IMG/VR virus record: IMGVR_UViG_3300028558_000003 | Coordinates: 1-61,563 of that record | Length of the DNA: 61,563 nucleotides | Strand: one strand, 5' to 3' | DNA from: a virus | Shown here: positions 30,134 through 34,563 of the stretch, in pieces | How the letters are laid out: the number at the start of each line of letters is the position of its first letter | How positions within the stretch are numbered: the stretch's first letter is position 1 | Made by a program: the position numbers and the translations under genes | The notes under the pieces: model-generated | The model's input: only the letters and a program-made list of their open reading frames with translations | The model's database searches: none | Told to the model about the DNA's origin: nothing

Positions 30134-30400
30134 TCACGCCCAGTTCGATAGGGTCGCGATCTTCTTGCCTTGGTGGATCACATCCACATCATCCAGCCAA
30201 TCGGCAGGGATGAGGTCTAGGATCTCCTTGAGGGCGCAGGCGGGGCTCGGCACCTCGACGAAGCCCAAGGACACCCAGCGGGCTCGCTGGCAGCCTGTAT
30301 CGAAGCCGATGCTCTCAAGGTACTTGGTCAGGCGGGTCTCCATCCTGCGCATGCGCAGGTGGATGTCGTCTACCTTGGTCTCGACGGTGTGGGCGGTCAT
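30134..30400 (-). CDS. Small protein, unknown
   Basis: 88 residues. Coiled-coil N-terminus (VETKVDDIHLRMRRMETRLTKYLESIGF) followed by a short mixed domain with LKEILDLIPADWLDDVDVIHQGK. No motif recognised. Upstream ribosome binding site is AAAGG. Confidence 0.6.
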   Translation of the reverse strand: MTAHTVETKVDDIHLRMRRMETRLTKYLESIGFDTGCQRARWVSLGFVEVPSPACALKEILDLIPADWLDDVDVIHQGKKIATLSNWA

Positions 30401-30463: not shown

Positions 30464-31327
30464 TCATGCCGCCGCTCCAAACGCGTTCATGAAGCCGGAC
30501 ATCTCGTCCATGATGCGCGCCGCTTCGGCAGCCGCCTCGCTGCGAACAGCCGGGTCTTTGCGCAGATCCTTGGGATCGTAGCCGACCAGCGTCTTGCGCA
30601 GGTCTTCATAGATCGCAGTGAGCTGCTCGTCTCCCGTGATGTTCAGCCCCGGCAGCAGGTCCACCAGCTCTTCGAGATTGGTGATCGTGCTGTCGCGGAA
30701 GATGCCATCGCTGGCCATCTTGTCGGCGAAGTGACCCACGGTCTGGGCCAGCCGCTCCCACACCGAACGCATGGCCGTGGCCAGTCGAGCCGTGGTCGCC
30801 GTCTCGATGTCGCCACGGATCTGGGCGACGCTCTCCTTGTCCAGCGCGACGCGGAAGTCAGAGGCTTCCGAGACGGCGTCGATGTCGAGCGCGACATAGA
30901 ACTTGTGCTTCAGCTCGCTCGGCGTCGGGTAGTCGTCCGAGTTGAACAGCGAGCCCATGCGGAACTCGGCGCGCATCTTGGCCTGCGGGTAGGTGGTCCC
31001 GAGGAACTCATCGACCGCCGCGTGGAACTCGCCGACGAGCCGCTGGTGCTCTTCGATGAACGGGGCGTAGAGCTTGCGCGTCAGCAGCCGGTCGCCGTTG
31101 TCCTTCCACGGCAGGGTCTTGCCATAGAGGTGCTGCCTGATCTGGCCAGCCGCGAAGACGATGGTCTTCAGGCTCTCCTTGGGGATCAGGTGCTTGTTGA
31201 CGCGGGCGGCGTCAGCATCGGCCCCGGCGTCGTCGGTCACCTGCTTCGACGCGTTCTTGTCGAGGCGGTAGCCCTGCCAGATGCCGAGGGACAGGTTCAC
31301 GATCATGCAGTTCTTGGTGATAGACAT
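30464..31327 (-). CDS. DUF3150-like protein
   Basis: 287 residues, GGAGAG upstream. The start MSITKNCMIVNLSLGIWQGYRLDK, followed by a long helical body with KHLIPKESLKTIVFAAGQIRQHLYGKTLPW and AMRSVWERLAQTVGHFADK, and length near 290, agree with DUF3150 proteins. In several phages these lie beside a MoxR-type ATPase and a zincin/VWA protein; here those genes follow upstream at 32187 and 33381. A shared complex is inferred from this recurrent neighbourhood; no catalytic motif is visible. Confidence 0.65.
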   Translation of the reverse strand: MSITKNCMIVNLSLGIWQGYRLDKNASKQVTDDAGADADAARVNKHLIPKESLKTIVFAAGQIRQHLYGKTLPWKDNGDRLLTRKLYAPFIEEHQRLVGEFHAAVDEFLGTTYPQAKMRAEFRMGSLFNSDDYPTPSELKHKFYVALDIDAVSEASDFRVALDKESVAQIRGDIETATTARLATAMRSVWERLAQTVGHFADKMASDGIFRDSTITNLEELVDLLPGLNITGDEQLTAIYEDLRKTLVGYDPKDLRKDPAVRSEAAAEAARIMDEMSGFMNAFGAAA

Positions 31328-31344
31328 GGAACTCTCCTGCTTGA

Positions 31345-31366
31345 ATTTGCGACAGATGTCGCAAAT
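31345..31366 (-). repeat. TTTGCGACA palindrome 3
   Basis: Perfect 10-bp arms, centre GA. Lies 17 bases before the DUF3150-like start, immediately before its ribosome binding site CAGGAGAG, and 7 bases from the stop of the 31374 gene. Confidence 0.9.
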
Positions 31367-31373
31367 GGGTTGG

Positions 31374-31682
31374 TTAGTGGTCGTTGGTTATAGCCCACAT
31401 GATCGCAGCTTCAATGCTGTTGAAGCGTGTGACATAGGGCGGCTTCATCATGAGTTTCGTTCCGCCTCTCAGCTTGCGCGCAGAGCCTAGCAAGTCGATG
31501 ACCGCGATGGCTTCGGTCTTGGGTAACCATGCGACAAGCCAATTGTGGTGCACCGGGACGTAGCGCATGGCTTCCTTGAGGGTGAACTTCCTGTTGAGCG
31601 CGTGCCTCTCGACGTGCCCTGTGCGAGGATCTACAGACGCGTGGATCACCACGCGCTGCTCGACCCACTCGATGCGCTTCAT
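31374..31682 (-). CDS. Unknown protein
   Basis: 102 residues from ATG 31682, ATGA overlap with the upstream stop. Mixed alpha/beta (RIEWVEQRVVIHASVDPRTGHVERHALNRKF, NWLVAWLPKTEAIAVIDLLGS). No motif recognised. Between the DUF3150-like and the zincin/VWA gene. Confidence 0.6.
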   Translation of the reverse strand: MKRIEWVEQRVVIHASVDPRTGHVERHALNRKFTLKEAMRYVPVHHNWLVAWLPKTEAIAVIDLLGSARKLRGGTKLMMKPPYVTRFNSIEAAIMWAITNDH

Positions 31683-31996
31683 GCTGGCCTCTTCCTGCTG
31701 CTCTGCACCTTGCGGCGCAGCTTGTCCTCCCACCCTGCACGAGCGTGCAGAGTGTGTGGTCCGAGAGCCTCGTGGCAGAGCATGTCCACCACGCGGCTGT
31801 GGCCGATGCGCAGCCTGACCTCGGCGTCACGTATGAGCCCGTCAAGCTGCATGTAGACTTCGTCAGGGCTGAACTCGCCCTTGGTCACCACAAGCGACAT
31901 CTTCAGGACCGCCAGCTCAAGCTCCTTGACCGAGGACATAAGCTTGAGCATCGGGTAGACGCGACGCTTGGCGATCTCTTTTTCTTCCGGGGTCAT
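31679..31996 (-). CDS. Helical protein, unknown
   Basis: 105 residues, starting MTPEEKEIAKRRVYPMLKLM at 31996 with ATGA overlaps at both ends. Helical with a basic C-terminus (GWEDKLRRKVQSSRKRPA). No motif recognised. Confidence 0.6.
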   Translation of the reverse strand: MTPEEKEIAKRRVYPMLKLMSSVKELELAVLKMSLVVTKGEFSPDEVYMQLDGLIRDAEVRLRIGHSRVVDMLCHEALGPHTLHARAGWEDKLRRKVQSSRKRPA

Positions 31997-32178
31997 AGCT
32001 CTGTCACCCCCTCGACTGTGGCGTCGGCGCGGCTGCAGTCGTTGTGCCACTGCTCGCGCGGGTCTTGCGACAGCTCGTACAGCTCCTTGGCTAGACGAGC
32101 TGCCTTCTCCGCGCTCGTCGCTTGAACGTCAATGGAGAACAGCCGGTGCTCCATCAGCTCAACGGTATAGGTCTTCAT
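31993..32178 (-). CDS. Small protein, unknown
   Basis: 61 residues, GAGGTGACAC ribosome binding site. The pattern MKTYTVELMEHRLFSIDVQATSAEKAARLAKELY is that of a small ferredoxin-like beta-alpha-beta protein seen widely in phages. Function unknown. Confidence 0.6.
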   Translation of the reverse strand: MKTYTVELMEHRLFSIDVQATSAEKAARLAKELYELSQDPREQWHNDCSRADATVEGVTEL

Positions 32179-32186
32179 GTGTCACC

Positions 32187-33332
32187 TCACGTGGTTATGT
32201 GGATGGTCTCGCCGATGGGCGCGACCCTGTTGGTGGTGCTGAGCACGAGCAGCGGGTAGGGCGTGTCGTCCGGCCACGGTGTGAAGCAGTCGGTGACCAG
32301 CACCACGCAGAGCGGATCGTACTGCTCCACGAACGCCAGCGGCTTGCGCATGTCGGTCCCGCCGCCGCCCTCGGGCGTCAGCTCGATCAGGTCGCCGGGC
32401 TCGAACACCTGCTGCAGCGAGCAGTCGGCGTCGTCAGCCCAGATCATGCGGACGCGCTCGGGCTTGAGGTTGTCCACGATGTAGTTCAGCTCGGCGCTGA
32501 TCCGGCTGTAATAGTCCCTGTCGCCGTGCACAGAACCGGAGGTGTCGCCGATCAGCACCAGCTCGCCGAGCTTCTGGCTGTAGCGTGCGGGCAGGTAGAA
32601 GTCGGCGAAGCGGTTGTTGCGCCGCGACCAGCTCTCGTCCTCGCGAACGAACTGGATCATGTAGCGGGCCAGCGCCTGCTCCCACGCCACCTGCGGTTCG
32701 AGGATCGAGGCGACCAGTCCCTTGAGGTGACCCGGCATCTTGCCCGCCAGCTCGGCCTGCATCGCCGCCGACGCCACACGGCCATGGATGGCGCGGGTGA
32801 TCTCGGCCTTGGTCGCCTCATCCATCTTATGGGTGGGCAACAGATCGCCGGGGAGCGGCCCTGACGGCCCTTGACCGGGCTGCCCGCTACCCTGACCCGG
32901 CTGCGGCTGTCCCTGCCCCTGTTGGGGCTTCGGCTTGGCCTGCTGCTCACGCCGCAGGATGTCGTAGATCTGCTCAGCCGACATGCCCTTGAAGCGTGCG
33001 TCGCACAGGGCGTTGGTCCAGATCGTGACGCCGCTCTCCTTGAGCAGCAGGTTGACCTCGTGATCGCAGGCGATGTTCCACAGCTCGTGGTCGCGGTCGC
33101 CCTGCCGGAAGCCGTGGGTCAGCACGATGTGCAGCAGCTCATGCAGCAGCACGAAGATGATGACCGCGATCTCCAGCGTGTCGAAGAAGTCCGGGTTCCA
33201 GAAGATGGACTTCATGTCGGTCGCGGCGCGCTCAACCTCTCGCGTCTCGACCATTGGCGTGTTGAAGATCAGCGCCGCGAAGAACACTTGGCGGATCGCG
33301 ATCTGACCTTGGGCCTTCTCGATGTGTCTCAT
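32187..33332 (-). CDS. Zincin/VWA-domain protein (DUF2201-like)
   Basis: 381 residues. The N-terminal part has HELLHIVLTH (residues 64-73), an HExxHxxxxH zinc site, followed by WNIACDHEVNLLL, in the order of DUF2201 putative metallopeptidases. A Gln/Pro/Gly linker (about 130-160) leads to a C-terminal von Willebrand A-like domain: LVLIGDTSGSV (D-x-S-x-S MIDAS), and GGGGTDMRKPL for the later metal-site Thr. Together with the MoxR-type ATPase upstream it forms the MoxR/VWA pair known as chaperone-like remodelling systems in bacteria. Substrate unknown. Its leader has a hairpin (33350-33372) and CCAAGGA. Confidence 0.8.
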   Translation of the reverse strand: MRHIEKAQGQIAIRQVFFAALIFNTPMVETREVERAATDMKSIFWNPDFFDTLEIAVIIFVLLHELLHIVLTHGFRQGDRDHELWNIACDHEVNLLLKESGVTIWTNALCDARFKGMSAEQIYDILRREQQAKPKPQQGQGQPQPGQGSGQPGQGPSGPLPGDLLPTHKMDEATKAEITRAIHGRVASAAMQAELAGKMPGHLKGLVASILEPQVAWEQALARYMIQFVREDESWSRRNNRFADFYLPARYSQKLGELVLIGDTSGSVHGDRDYYSRISAELNYIVDNLKPERVRMIWADDADCSLQQVFEPGDLIELTPEGGGGTDMRKPLAFVEQYDPLCVVLVTDCFTPWPDDTPYPLLVLSTTNRVAPIGETIHITT

Positions 33333-33349
33333 GTTGGAAGTCCTTGGTT

Positions 33350-33372
33350 ATGCCCACGTGACGCGTGGGCAT
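33350..33372 (-). repeat. Intercistronic hairpin (ATGCCCACG type)
   Basis: 9-bp arms ATGCCCACG / CGTGGGCAT, 5-base loop, in the gap between the MoxR-type and zincin/VWA genes. It is unrelated in sequence to the TTTGCGACA palindromes but sits at the same position; a degenerate ATTTGCGA half-site touches its edge. Confidence 0.75.
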
Positions 33373-33380
33373 TTGCGATG

Positions 33381-34469
33381 TCAGGCTGCGGAGCTGAACG
33401 CCTCGGTGTAGATCTTGGCGTAGTCCATGTACTCGGGCAGCTGGTACAGCGCGGTGTCGCGGCGCAGCGCCAGCGTCCACGCCATCATCGTCATGGCCGG
33501 GCGCAGCCGCTTCAGGTAGGTGTGTATCCACCCGGCGTTCTTGGCGTTCATGTCGCCGCTGAGCTTGACGGCGACGCAATAGGCCAGCGACAGGCCGTGG
33601 TCCTTGGCGAGGTCGGGCAGCTCGACGTTGACCGGGTCCGCCTTGATCTTGGGGACGTAGTCCTTGAGGGTCTCCCAGATCTTGACGAAGCCGATGATCT
33701 CTGCGGTCACGCCCTTGCCGACCGAACCGGCCATGACGGCTTCGCGCATCCACTCCGGCTCCTTGGTCATCCACGCACGCCACGCCTTGGCGGCGGTGCG
33801 CGGCGTCGAGAACACCGTGTCCTTGGAGGTCGGGCTGTAGGTGTGCAGCAGGTCCGGCTTGAAGCCGTAGAACGCGAAGGCCACGGGCGGCAGATCGCCC
33901 TTGGTCTGGTGATGCGCGATGAAGTCCTTGGCGCTCACGACAGCCCTGACCTGCACGAAGCGGTTGAGCAGCGGGATGGGCATCCGGTTGACGACGCCCT
34001 TGTCAGTCGCAAGGTTACCCATGGCGATGATGACGACGTTGTCCATCAGCTTGTTCGAGCCGATGCCACGGTCGTTGACGAGCTGGTAGGCAGCGGCCAG
34101 CGTCGGCAGCGAGCCAGCGTTGATCTCGTCGAGCACGAGCCAGATGGTGCCCTTGATGTGAGCGAACTTCGGGTTGCCCACGAATGGCAGCTCGCCGGGA
34201 GCGAACCACTCGGCCTGACGGACGATGATCTTGTTCTTCGGCGTGCCGGTCTCGAACGTCTCCAGACCGGGCAGGCCGCGCAGGTCAACGCTGTCGCGCT
34301 GGCTCAGCCGGATGTCGATCATGAAGTCGTTGGGGTTGGCCGTGGCCACCTGCGTCACGCCCTCGGACTTGCCGATGCCGAAAGTGCCTTCGATGTAGAG
34401 CGGCTCTTTCAGCTGGAGGGCGACATAGGGGATGAACTTCCACAGCTGTGAAATGGTAAGCTCGTGCAT
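33381..34469 (-). CDS. MoxR-type AAA+ ATPase
   Basis: 362 residues from ATG 34469, with CCAAGGA eight bases upstream. Walker A GTFGIGKS at 28-35; IWLVLDEINAG (Walker B, near 125); NVVIIAMGNLATD (sensor 1); and LLNRFVQVRAV, an arginine-finger-like R. The order and DEIN-x-G box are those of MoxR/RavA-like AAA+ proteins, usually hexameric motors that work with VWA partners; such a partner is encoded next. It is preceded by a long leader with several TTTGCGACA sites and a promoter. Confidence 0.85.
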   Translation of the reverse strand: MHELTISQLWKFIPYVALQLKEPLYIEGTFGIGKSEGVTQVATANPNDFMIDIRLSQRDSVDLRGLPGLETFETGTPKNKIIVRQAEWFAPGELPFVGNPKFAHIKGTIWLVLDEINAGSLPTLAAAYQLVNDRGIGSNKLMDNVVIIAMGNLATDKGVVNRMPIPLLNRFVQVRAVVSAKDFIAHHQTKGDLPPVAFAFYGFKPDLLHTYSPTSKDTVFSTPRTAAKAWRAWMTKEPEWMREAVMAGSVGKGVTAEIIGFVKIWETLKDYVPKIKADPVNVELPDLAKDHGLSLAYCVAVKLSGDMNAKNAGWIHTYLKRLRPAMTMMAWTLALRRDTALYQLPEYMDYAKIYTEAFSSAA

Positions 34470-34488: not shown

Positions 34489-34563
34489 ATTTGCGACGCT
34501 AGCAAGGCCAGTACACTGGCCGACTAGATTTGCGACACATGTCGCAAATCAATGTCGCAAATT
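34489..34563 (-). repeat. TTTGCGACA palindrome cluster 4
   Basis: One perfect 22-bp palindrome (34528-34549, centre CA), a half-site ATTTGCGAC at 34489-34497, and a second half-site in the other orientation at 34551-34563. Between them is a separate perfect palindrome of 7-bp arms, GGCCAGT / ACTGGCC, at 34506-34521. This is the densest copy of the element and lies between the promoter and the MoxR-type gene. Confidence 0.85.

Follow-up and report, generated by a model that had tools for sequence, protein, structure and literature searches.

Why should a phage carry a MoxR-type AAA+ ATPase next to a protein that combines a putative zincin metallopeptidase with a VWA domain? This question is raised by a locus in the IMG/VR virus record IMGVR_UViG_3300028558_000003 (61,563 bases, analysed at full length and hereafter referred to as the window), in which the ATPase (M), the zincin/VWA protein (V) and a DUF3150-like protein (D) are encoded close together. 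An earlier note, made from the sequence, had described these genes as one block and had named host transcription or defence complexes, or virion assembly, as candidate targets. Here, we propose that M, V and D form one remodelling machine that acts in takeover and replication and not on the virion, a reading to which we give a probability of roughly 0.55. The three genes of the trio are as follows.

33381..34469, minus strand: M, MoxR-type AAA+ ATPase, 362 amino acids from ATG (PHROG 1297, invariant ATPase motifs).
32187..33332, minus strand: V, DUF2201 protein, 381 amino acids, with an N-terminal zincin, a Gly/Pro/Gln-rich linker and a C-terminal VWA domain with a MIDAS (Pfam).
30464..31327, minus strand: D, DUF3150-like helical protein, 287 amino acids, third member of the trio (relatives and AlphaFold model).

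The three open reading frames (ORFs) lie where the earlier note had placed them, all on the minus strand, and the order of transcription is M, V, three small ORFs and D. The ATG of M at 34469 agrees with the gene end given in that note; a TTG at 34505 is also possible as a start.

The trio is a real, functionally linked module. The viral search used D alone as bait, and neither M nor V, and found 80 viral loci; relatives of D are also present in 44 plasmid records and 3 cultured phage records. M and V are both present, on the same strand as D, in 49 of the 49 viral loci with enough flanking sequence. The 65 complete loci show three gene orders, M-V-D (41 loci), M-D-V (15) and D-M-V (9), over a span of 3.1-7.3 kb with a median of 3.7 kb, and the 15 incomplete viral loci are all interrupted by a contig end. 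Many of the viral loci are close kin, and dereplication on D gives 42 lineages. The plasmid records are mostly from Burkholderiales; all 4 that were inspected have the trio, each in the order M-D-V. Several trio plasmids are conjugative or mobilizable, and in two of them the trio stands directly before type IV secretion genes. The trio was also found in 5 of 6 inspected bacterial contigs. Gene order is thus shuffled yet adjacency is kept, which argues for a functional unit. The neighbourhood search that the earlier note had suggested, with co-occurrence as the point at issue, therefore finds the three genes together in phages, plasmids and bacterial contigs, a wider distribution than that note had described. 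That three unrelated genes merely happen to be neighbours in this phage might be suspected from the three unrelated small genes that intervene in the window, but this explanation is already refuted by the retention of the trio in all these settings and in three gene orders, and its probability is next to nil.

By its sequence, M is a MoxR AAA+ ATPase on the CGN/Midasin side of the family. The Walker motifs reported in the earlier note were found (Walker A, GTFGIGKS; Walker B, LVLDE), together with a sensor-1 Asn, an Arg finger and a sensor-2 Arg. In an alignment of 15 sequences, the invariant columns include G30, G32, K33, D113, N151, R169 and R223. M matches PHROG 1297, 'ATPase', with an E-value of 2.6e-57. 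When the family profile was compared with solved structures, Midasin was the nearest relative (6.5e-43), while CbbQ/NorQ chains (5e-7 to 7e-6) were matched as well, as were many further AAA+ chains.

V is identified by its sequence as a putative metallopeptidase joined to a MIDAS-bearing VWA domain, and proteolysis is predicted. It matches the Pfam families DUF2201_N, 'putative metallopeptidase' (E=4.2e-41; 141.8 bits against a curated cut-off of 23.2), and DUF2201, VWA-like (E=1.4e-14; 54.7 bits against a curated cut-off of 26.4). Both motifs pointed out in the earlier note are there, the zinc motif HELLHIVLTH (HExxHxxxxH) and the MIDAS DTSGS. That note had also considered a VWA protein lacking metal binding; the predicted metal-site residues are conserved, with the MIDAS set D263, S265, S267, T326 and D348 kept among relatives. 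Of 66 near-full-length V proteins from viruses, all have an intact MIDAS DxSxS and 63 an intact HExxHxxxxH. The AlphaFold model of V has a mean predicted local distance difference test (pLDDT) score of 83.6, with low confidence in linker residues 147-159. In this model, the VWA part is near the MIDAS domain of MDN1 bound to its UBL partner NLE1, and the zincin part is like selecase. In a Paraburkholderia plasmid (L012, 9914-11188), the HExxH of V is replaced by LKVMQ while the MIDAS is kept, and this protein is probably a protease-dead version.

Relatives of V occur in 514 phage records, many of them tagged 'HNH endonuclease', the label of the V family in PHROG 1314. This assignment was ruled out, as Pfam and the motifs identify a zincin plus VWA. 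The same name is attached to the V family in many GenBank and RefSeq phage records, for example OZ196439.1 and NC_023719.1, and looks like a propagated error.

D is DUF3150-like, remotely so by sequence and more clearly in its predicted fold. D itself has no significant match in Pfam, NCBIfam or PHROG. Two D homologues have sub-threshold matches to Pfam DUF3150 (PF11348), with E-values of 6.7e-5 and 3.1e-4 and 15 bits against a cut-off of 24.9. The AlphaFold model of D (pLDDT 87.5; predicted template modelling score, pTM, 0.80) matches the viral BFVD entry A0A6J7WV52, 'DUF3150 domain-containing protein', with a template modelling (TM) score of 0.81 and an E-value of 6.5e-21. The DUF3150-like label of the earlier note is thus carried by the fold, whereas the sequence stays below the Pfam cut-off. 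The model has no significant fold match in the PDB, so the function of D cannot be read from its structure. In a tree of V (67 rows, midpoint rooting), phages that lack D are scattered among those that bear it, without separation as an outgroup; this hints that D is old and was later lost, in a tree whose root is arbitrary and which contains some long branches. A third subunit concealed in D-less phages was looked for with a 52-row D profile, and none was found in 8 complete D-less records.

The trio is located among replication genes. In the window, the minus strand from about 13 to 44 kb encodes a primase/helicase, an SNF2-type helicase, a PD-(D/E)XK nuclease, a ParB-like protein and a DNA polymerase; the genes for terminase, head-tail and capsid proteins are read from the plus strand. 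We surveyed the strands of 24 contigs carrying D: DNA polymerase A was located in 19 of them and is always co-directional with the trio, and terminase runs in the other direction in 5 of 6. DNA polymerase A, an Hjc-type resolvase, a PD-(D/E)XK nuclease and an SNF2 helicase are common neighbours. Cyanophage MinM2 has the trio on its replication strand and its structural genes opposite, and KP8 and Vibrio K479 have an M-V pair in the replication block with structural genes on the other strand. On a Dechloromonas chromosome, the trio is in a mobile-element-like block beside ORFs that, read from their translations, are putatively RecE-like, RecT, SSB and RadC-like.

A mechanism for such a machine could be described as follows. 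In Midasin/CbbO-type systems, the ring pulls on a target that is gripped, through one of its acidic residues, by the MIDAS metal. A Midasin-like mechanism is suggested for the trio because the M profile is nearest Midasin, with CbbQ/NorQ also matched, and because the VWA part of V is near the MDN1 MIDAS domain. M would assemble into a CGN/Midasin-type ring ATPase, and V would dock on this ring, with the MIDAS metal of its VWA domain gripping an acidic residue of the target, as in Midasin and CbbO. Pulling by the ring would remodel the target, and the flexibly tethered zincin of V may cut the target or a partner. The helical subunit D would bridge V to M or select the target. The machine would be made with the replication genes, and nucleoprotein or host complexes would be its substrates while the host is taken over and DNA is replicated. 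Of what the earlier note proposed, the chaperone-like complex of MoxR and VWA proteins is well supported by the family, and for the trio it is the predicted arrangement.

Several points weigh against the reading of one machine that acts in takeover and replication. The D-bearing machine is a proposal drawn from genes and models. Eight D-less phages carry M or M and V, so two parts can suffice. The zincin motif is gone in plasmid L012 and altered in the relatives L018, L019 and L093; because it is lost or changed in some relatives, cleavage cannot be essential everywhere and may be an extra activity on top of a more general one of gripping and pulling. Distance-matrix correlations across 15 loci are 0.97 within the trio, but the polymerase also reaches 0.94, and we dropped this approach as a proof of coevolution because it barely sets the trio apart from its neighbour. 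Strand and neighbourhood are only proxies for timing, and the contigs do not count as independent tests because genes in phage genomes are arranged in large strand blocks. Finally, the record of the PA5oct MoxR protein bears the note 'ESI-MS/MS', which may mean detection in virions.

The PA5oct note would fit a role in virion assembly, one of the targets put forward in the earlier note and one that has also been proposed for a phage MoxR with a metallopeptidase-vWA protein (PMC7824862). This role is disfavoured by where the trio is found: in the window and in MinM2, KP8 and K479, the trio or pair is on the replication strand, opposite and away from the structural genes, the terminase is opposite the trio in 5 of 6 contigs, and the same trio is present on plasmids, which have no virion. 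We consider it quite unlikely. The plasmid copies also bear on a tentative alternative, in which the machine remodels or recycles the replication or recombination proteins of the element itself, such as polymerase, SSB or recombinase complexes. The steady proximity of the trio to DNA polymerase A, nucleases, an SNF2 helicase and ERF/RecT-like genes speaks for this possibility, but the argument is one of neighbourhood, and on plasmids the neighbours are different, namely type IV secretion genes.

These same neighbours are among the points in favour of counter-defence or establishment, that is, of a machine that disables host complexes attacking incoming DNA. The trio is common to two kinds of invading DNA, phages and conjugative plasmids, its plasmid copies adjoin conjugation genes, and the KP8 pair shares a block with rIIA/rIIB, for which counter-defence against Rex has been reported (PMC11879866). 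However, no PADLOC defence family was matched by any of the three proteins, which also removed a known anti-phage defence system from the candidates, and the pair is core in Schitoviridae (PMC4193335), whereas many anti-defence genes are patchy. We hold counter-defence only tentatively. A more specific and unlikely version would make the trio an offensive counterpart of the MoxR-vWA-peptidase immune systems, common to phages and conjugative plasmids: D would recognise host defence or chromosome-bound complexes, the ring would extract them and the zincin would destroy them. The reading that we prefer remains a remodelling machine of takeover and replication.

Parts of this system have been seen before. 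Relatives of M and V occur in hundreds of phages. In phage N4, gp24 (an AAA+ ATPase) and gp25 (vWFA) are core genes whose function is listed as unknown (PMC4193335). The gp24-gp25 pair of N4-like phages (Schitoviridae) resembles the trio, with a homologous ATPase adjoining a homologous zincin-VWA protein in the replication/middle block, but no DUF3150-like gene was found in the KP8, nACB1 and K479 records tested. In group 2.2 jumbo phages, a MoxR protein is accompanied by a vWA co-chaperone that carries a fused metallopeptidase, the system for which the virion-assembly role was proposed (PMC7824862), and Bacillus phage 0305phi8-36 was reported in 2007 to have a MoxR pair in its non-structural arm (PMC2147016). 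These two systems have two components only, while the present trio adds a third subunit and the replication context.

Bacteria have ternary counter-invader systems that consist of MoxR, a vWA protein linked to a peptidase and, as the third part, VMAP or iSTAND (PMC7159879, PMC12839542). The trio likewise has three parts, with a MoxR ATPase, a vWA-peptidase and a third component, but those systems are described as host defence, whereas the trio is borne by phages and plasmids and its peptidase is a zincin. D has no Pfam domain and no significant PDB fold match that would make it a VMAP or iSTAND component, in searches that included no dedicated model of either. Like Midasin (Rea1), CbbQO, NorQD and RavA-ViaA, the trio pairs an AAA+ ATPase, here predicted to form a ring, with a MIDAS partner, and it differs from them in its separate small proteins, its added zincin, its DUF3150-like subunit and its viral or plasmid location. 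No mention of MoxR, Willebrand or AAA+ was found in the text of the CRISPRi-ART paper, which offers genome-wide knock-down data for T4, T5, SUSP1 and PTXU04. No description of a DUF3150-like third subunit or of its sharing between phages and plasmids was found in open-access full text, subscription papers and supplements being outside this search. The MoxR-VWA phage pair was therefore already known, while the third subunit and the sharing with plasmids seem to be undescribed in the open literature.

The remaining ORFs of the locus surround D, and the first three of them are the three small genes that the earlier note had seen between V and D.

31993..32178, minus strand: small ORF, 61 amino acids, starting 8 nucleotides past V.
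31679..31996, minus strand: small ORF, 105 amino acids from ATG, with a 4-nucleotide overlap with the 61-residue ORF.
31374..31682, minus strand: small ORF, 102 amino acids from ATG, with a 4-nucleotide overlap with the 105-residue ORF.
30134..30400, minus strand: protein of 88 amino acids directly downstream of D, kept in the closest relatives only.

No relatives of the three ORFs between V and D turned up in the other trio loci with which they were compared, and for this reason these ORFs are probably passengers. The 88-residue protein has identities of 56%, 49% and 39% to the D-adjacent proteins of L008, L009 and L017, respectively, and its membership of the trio is doubtful. In the V tree, the nearest relatives are L009 and L017, which are IMG/VR contigs of about 62 kb, and L102, a contig of 52 kb filed under an alphaproteobacterial metagenome-assembled genome; they hint at a proteobacterial host for the phage of the window.

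Elsewhere on the minus strand of the window, segment 13452-16409 encodes a primase/helicase-like protein of 985 amino acids that contains a DUF927 domain and weakly matches a primase-polymerase, and segment 22666-23514, within the replication block, encodes the ParB-like protein (PHROG 1033, E=9.8e-49). A dATP/dGTP diphosphohydrolase N-terminal domain (PF18909, E=2.5e-22) is encoded by segment 16427-16984, again on the minus strand. This domain prompted us to consider a 2-aminoadenine genome, which is unsupported, as no adenylosuccinate-synthetase-like PurZ was found.

For the phages and plasmids that carry it, the trio replaces a vague annotation by a testable machine, with a conserved third subunit, a place in the replication block and a distribution over many phages and plasmids. 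It gives three named proteins and residues to mutate, with D as bait, and MinM2, Pag-Yong1, N4 and KP8 are cultured phages suited to such a study.

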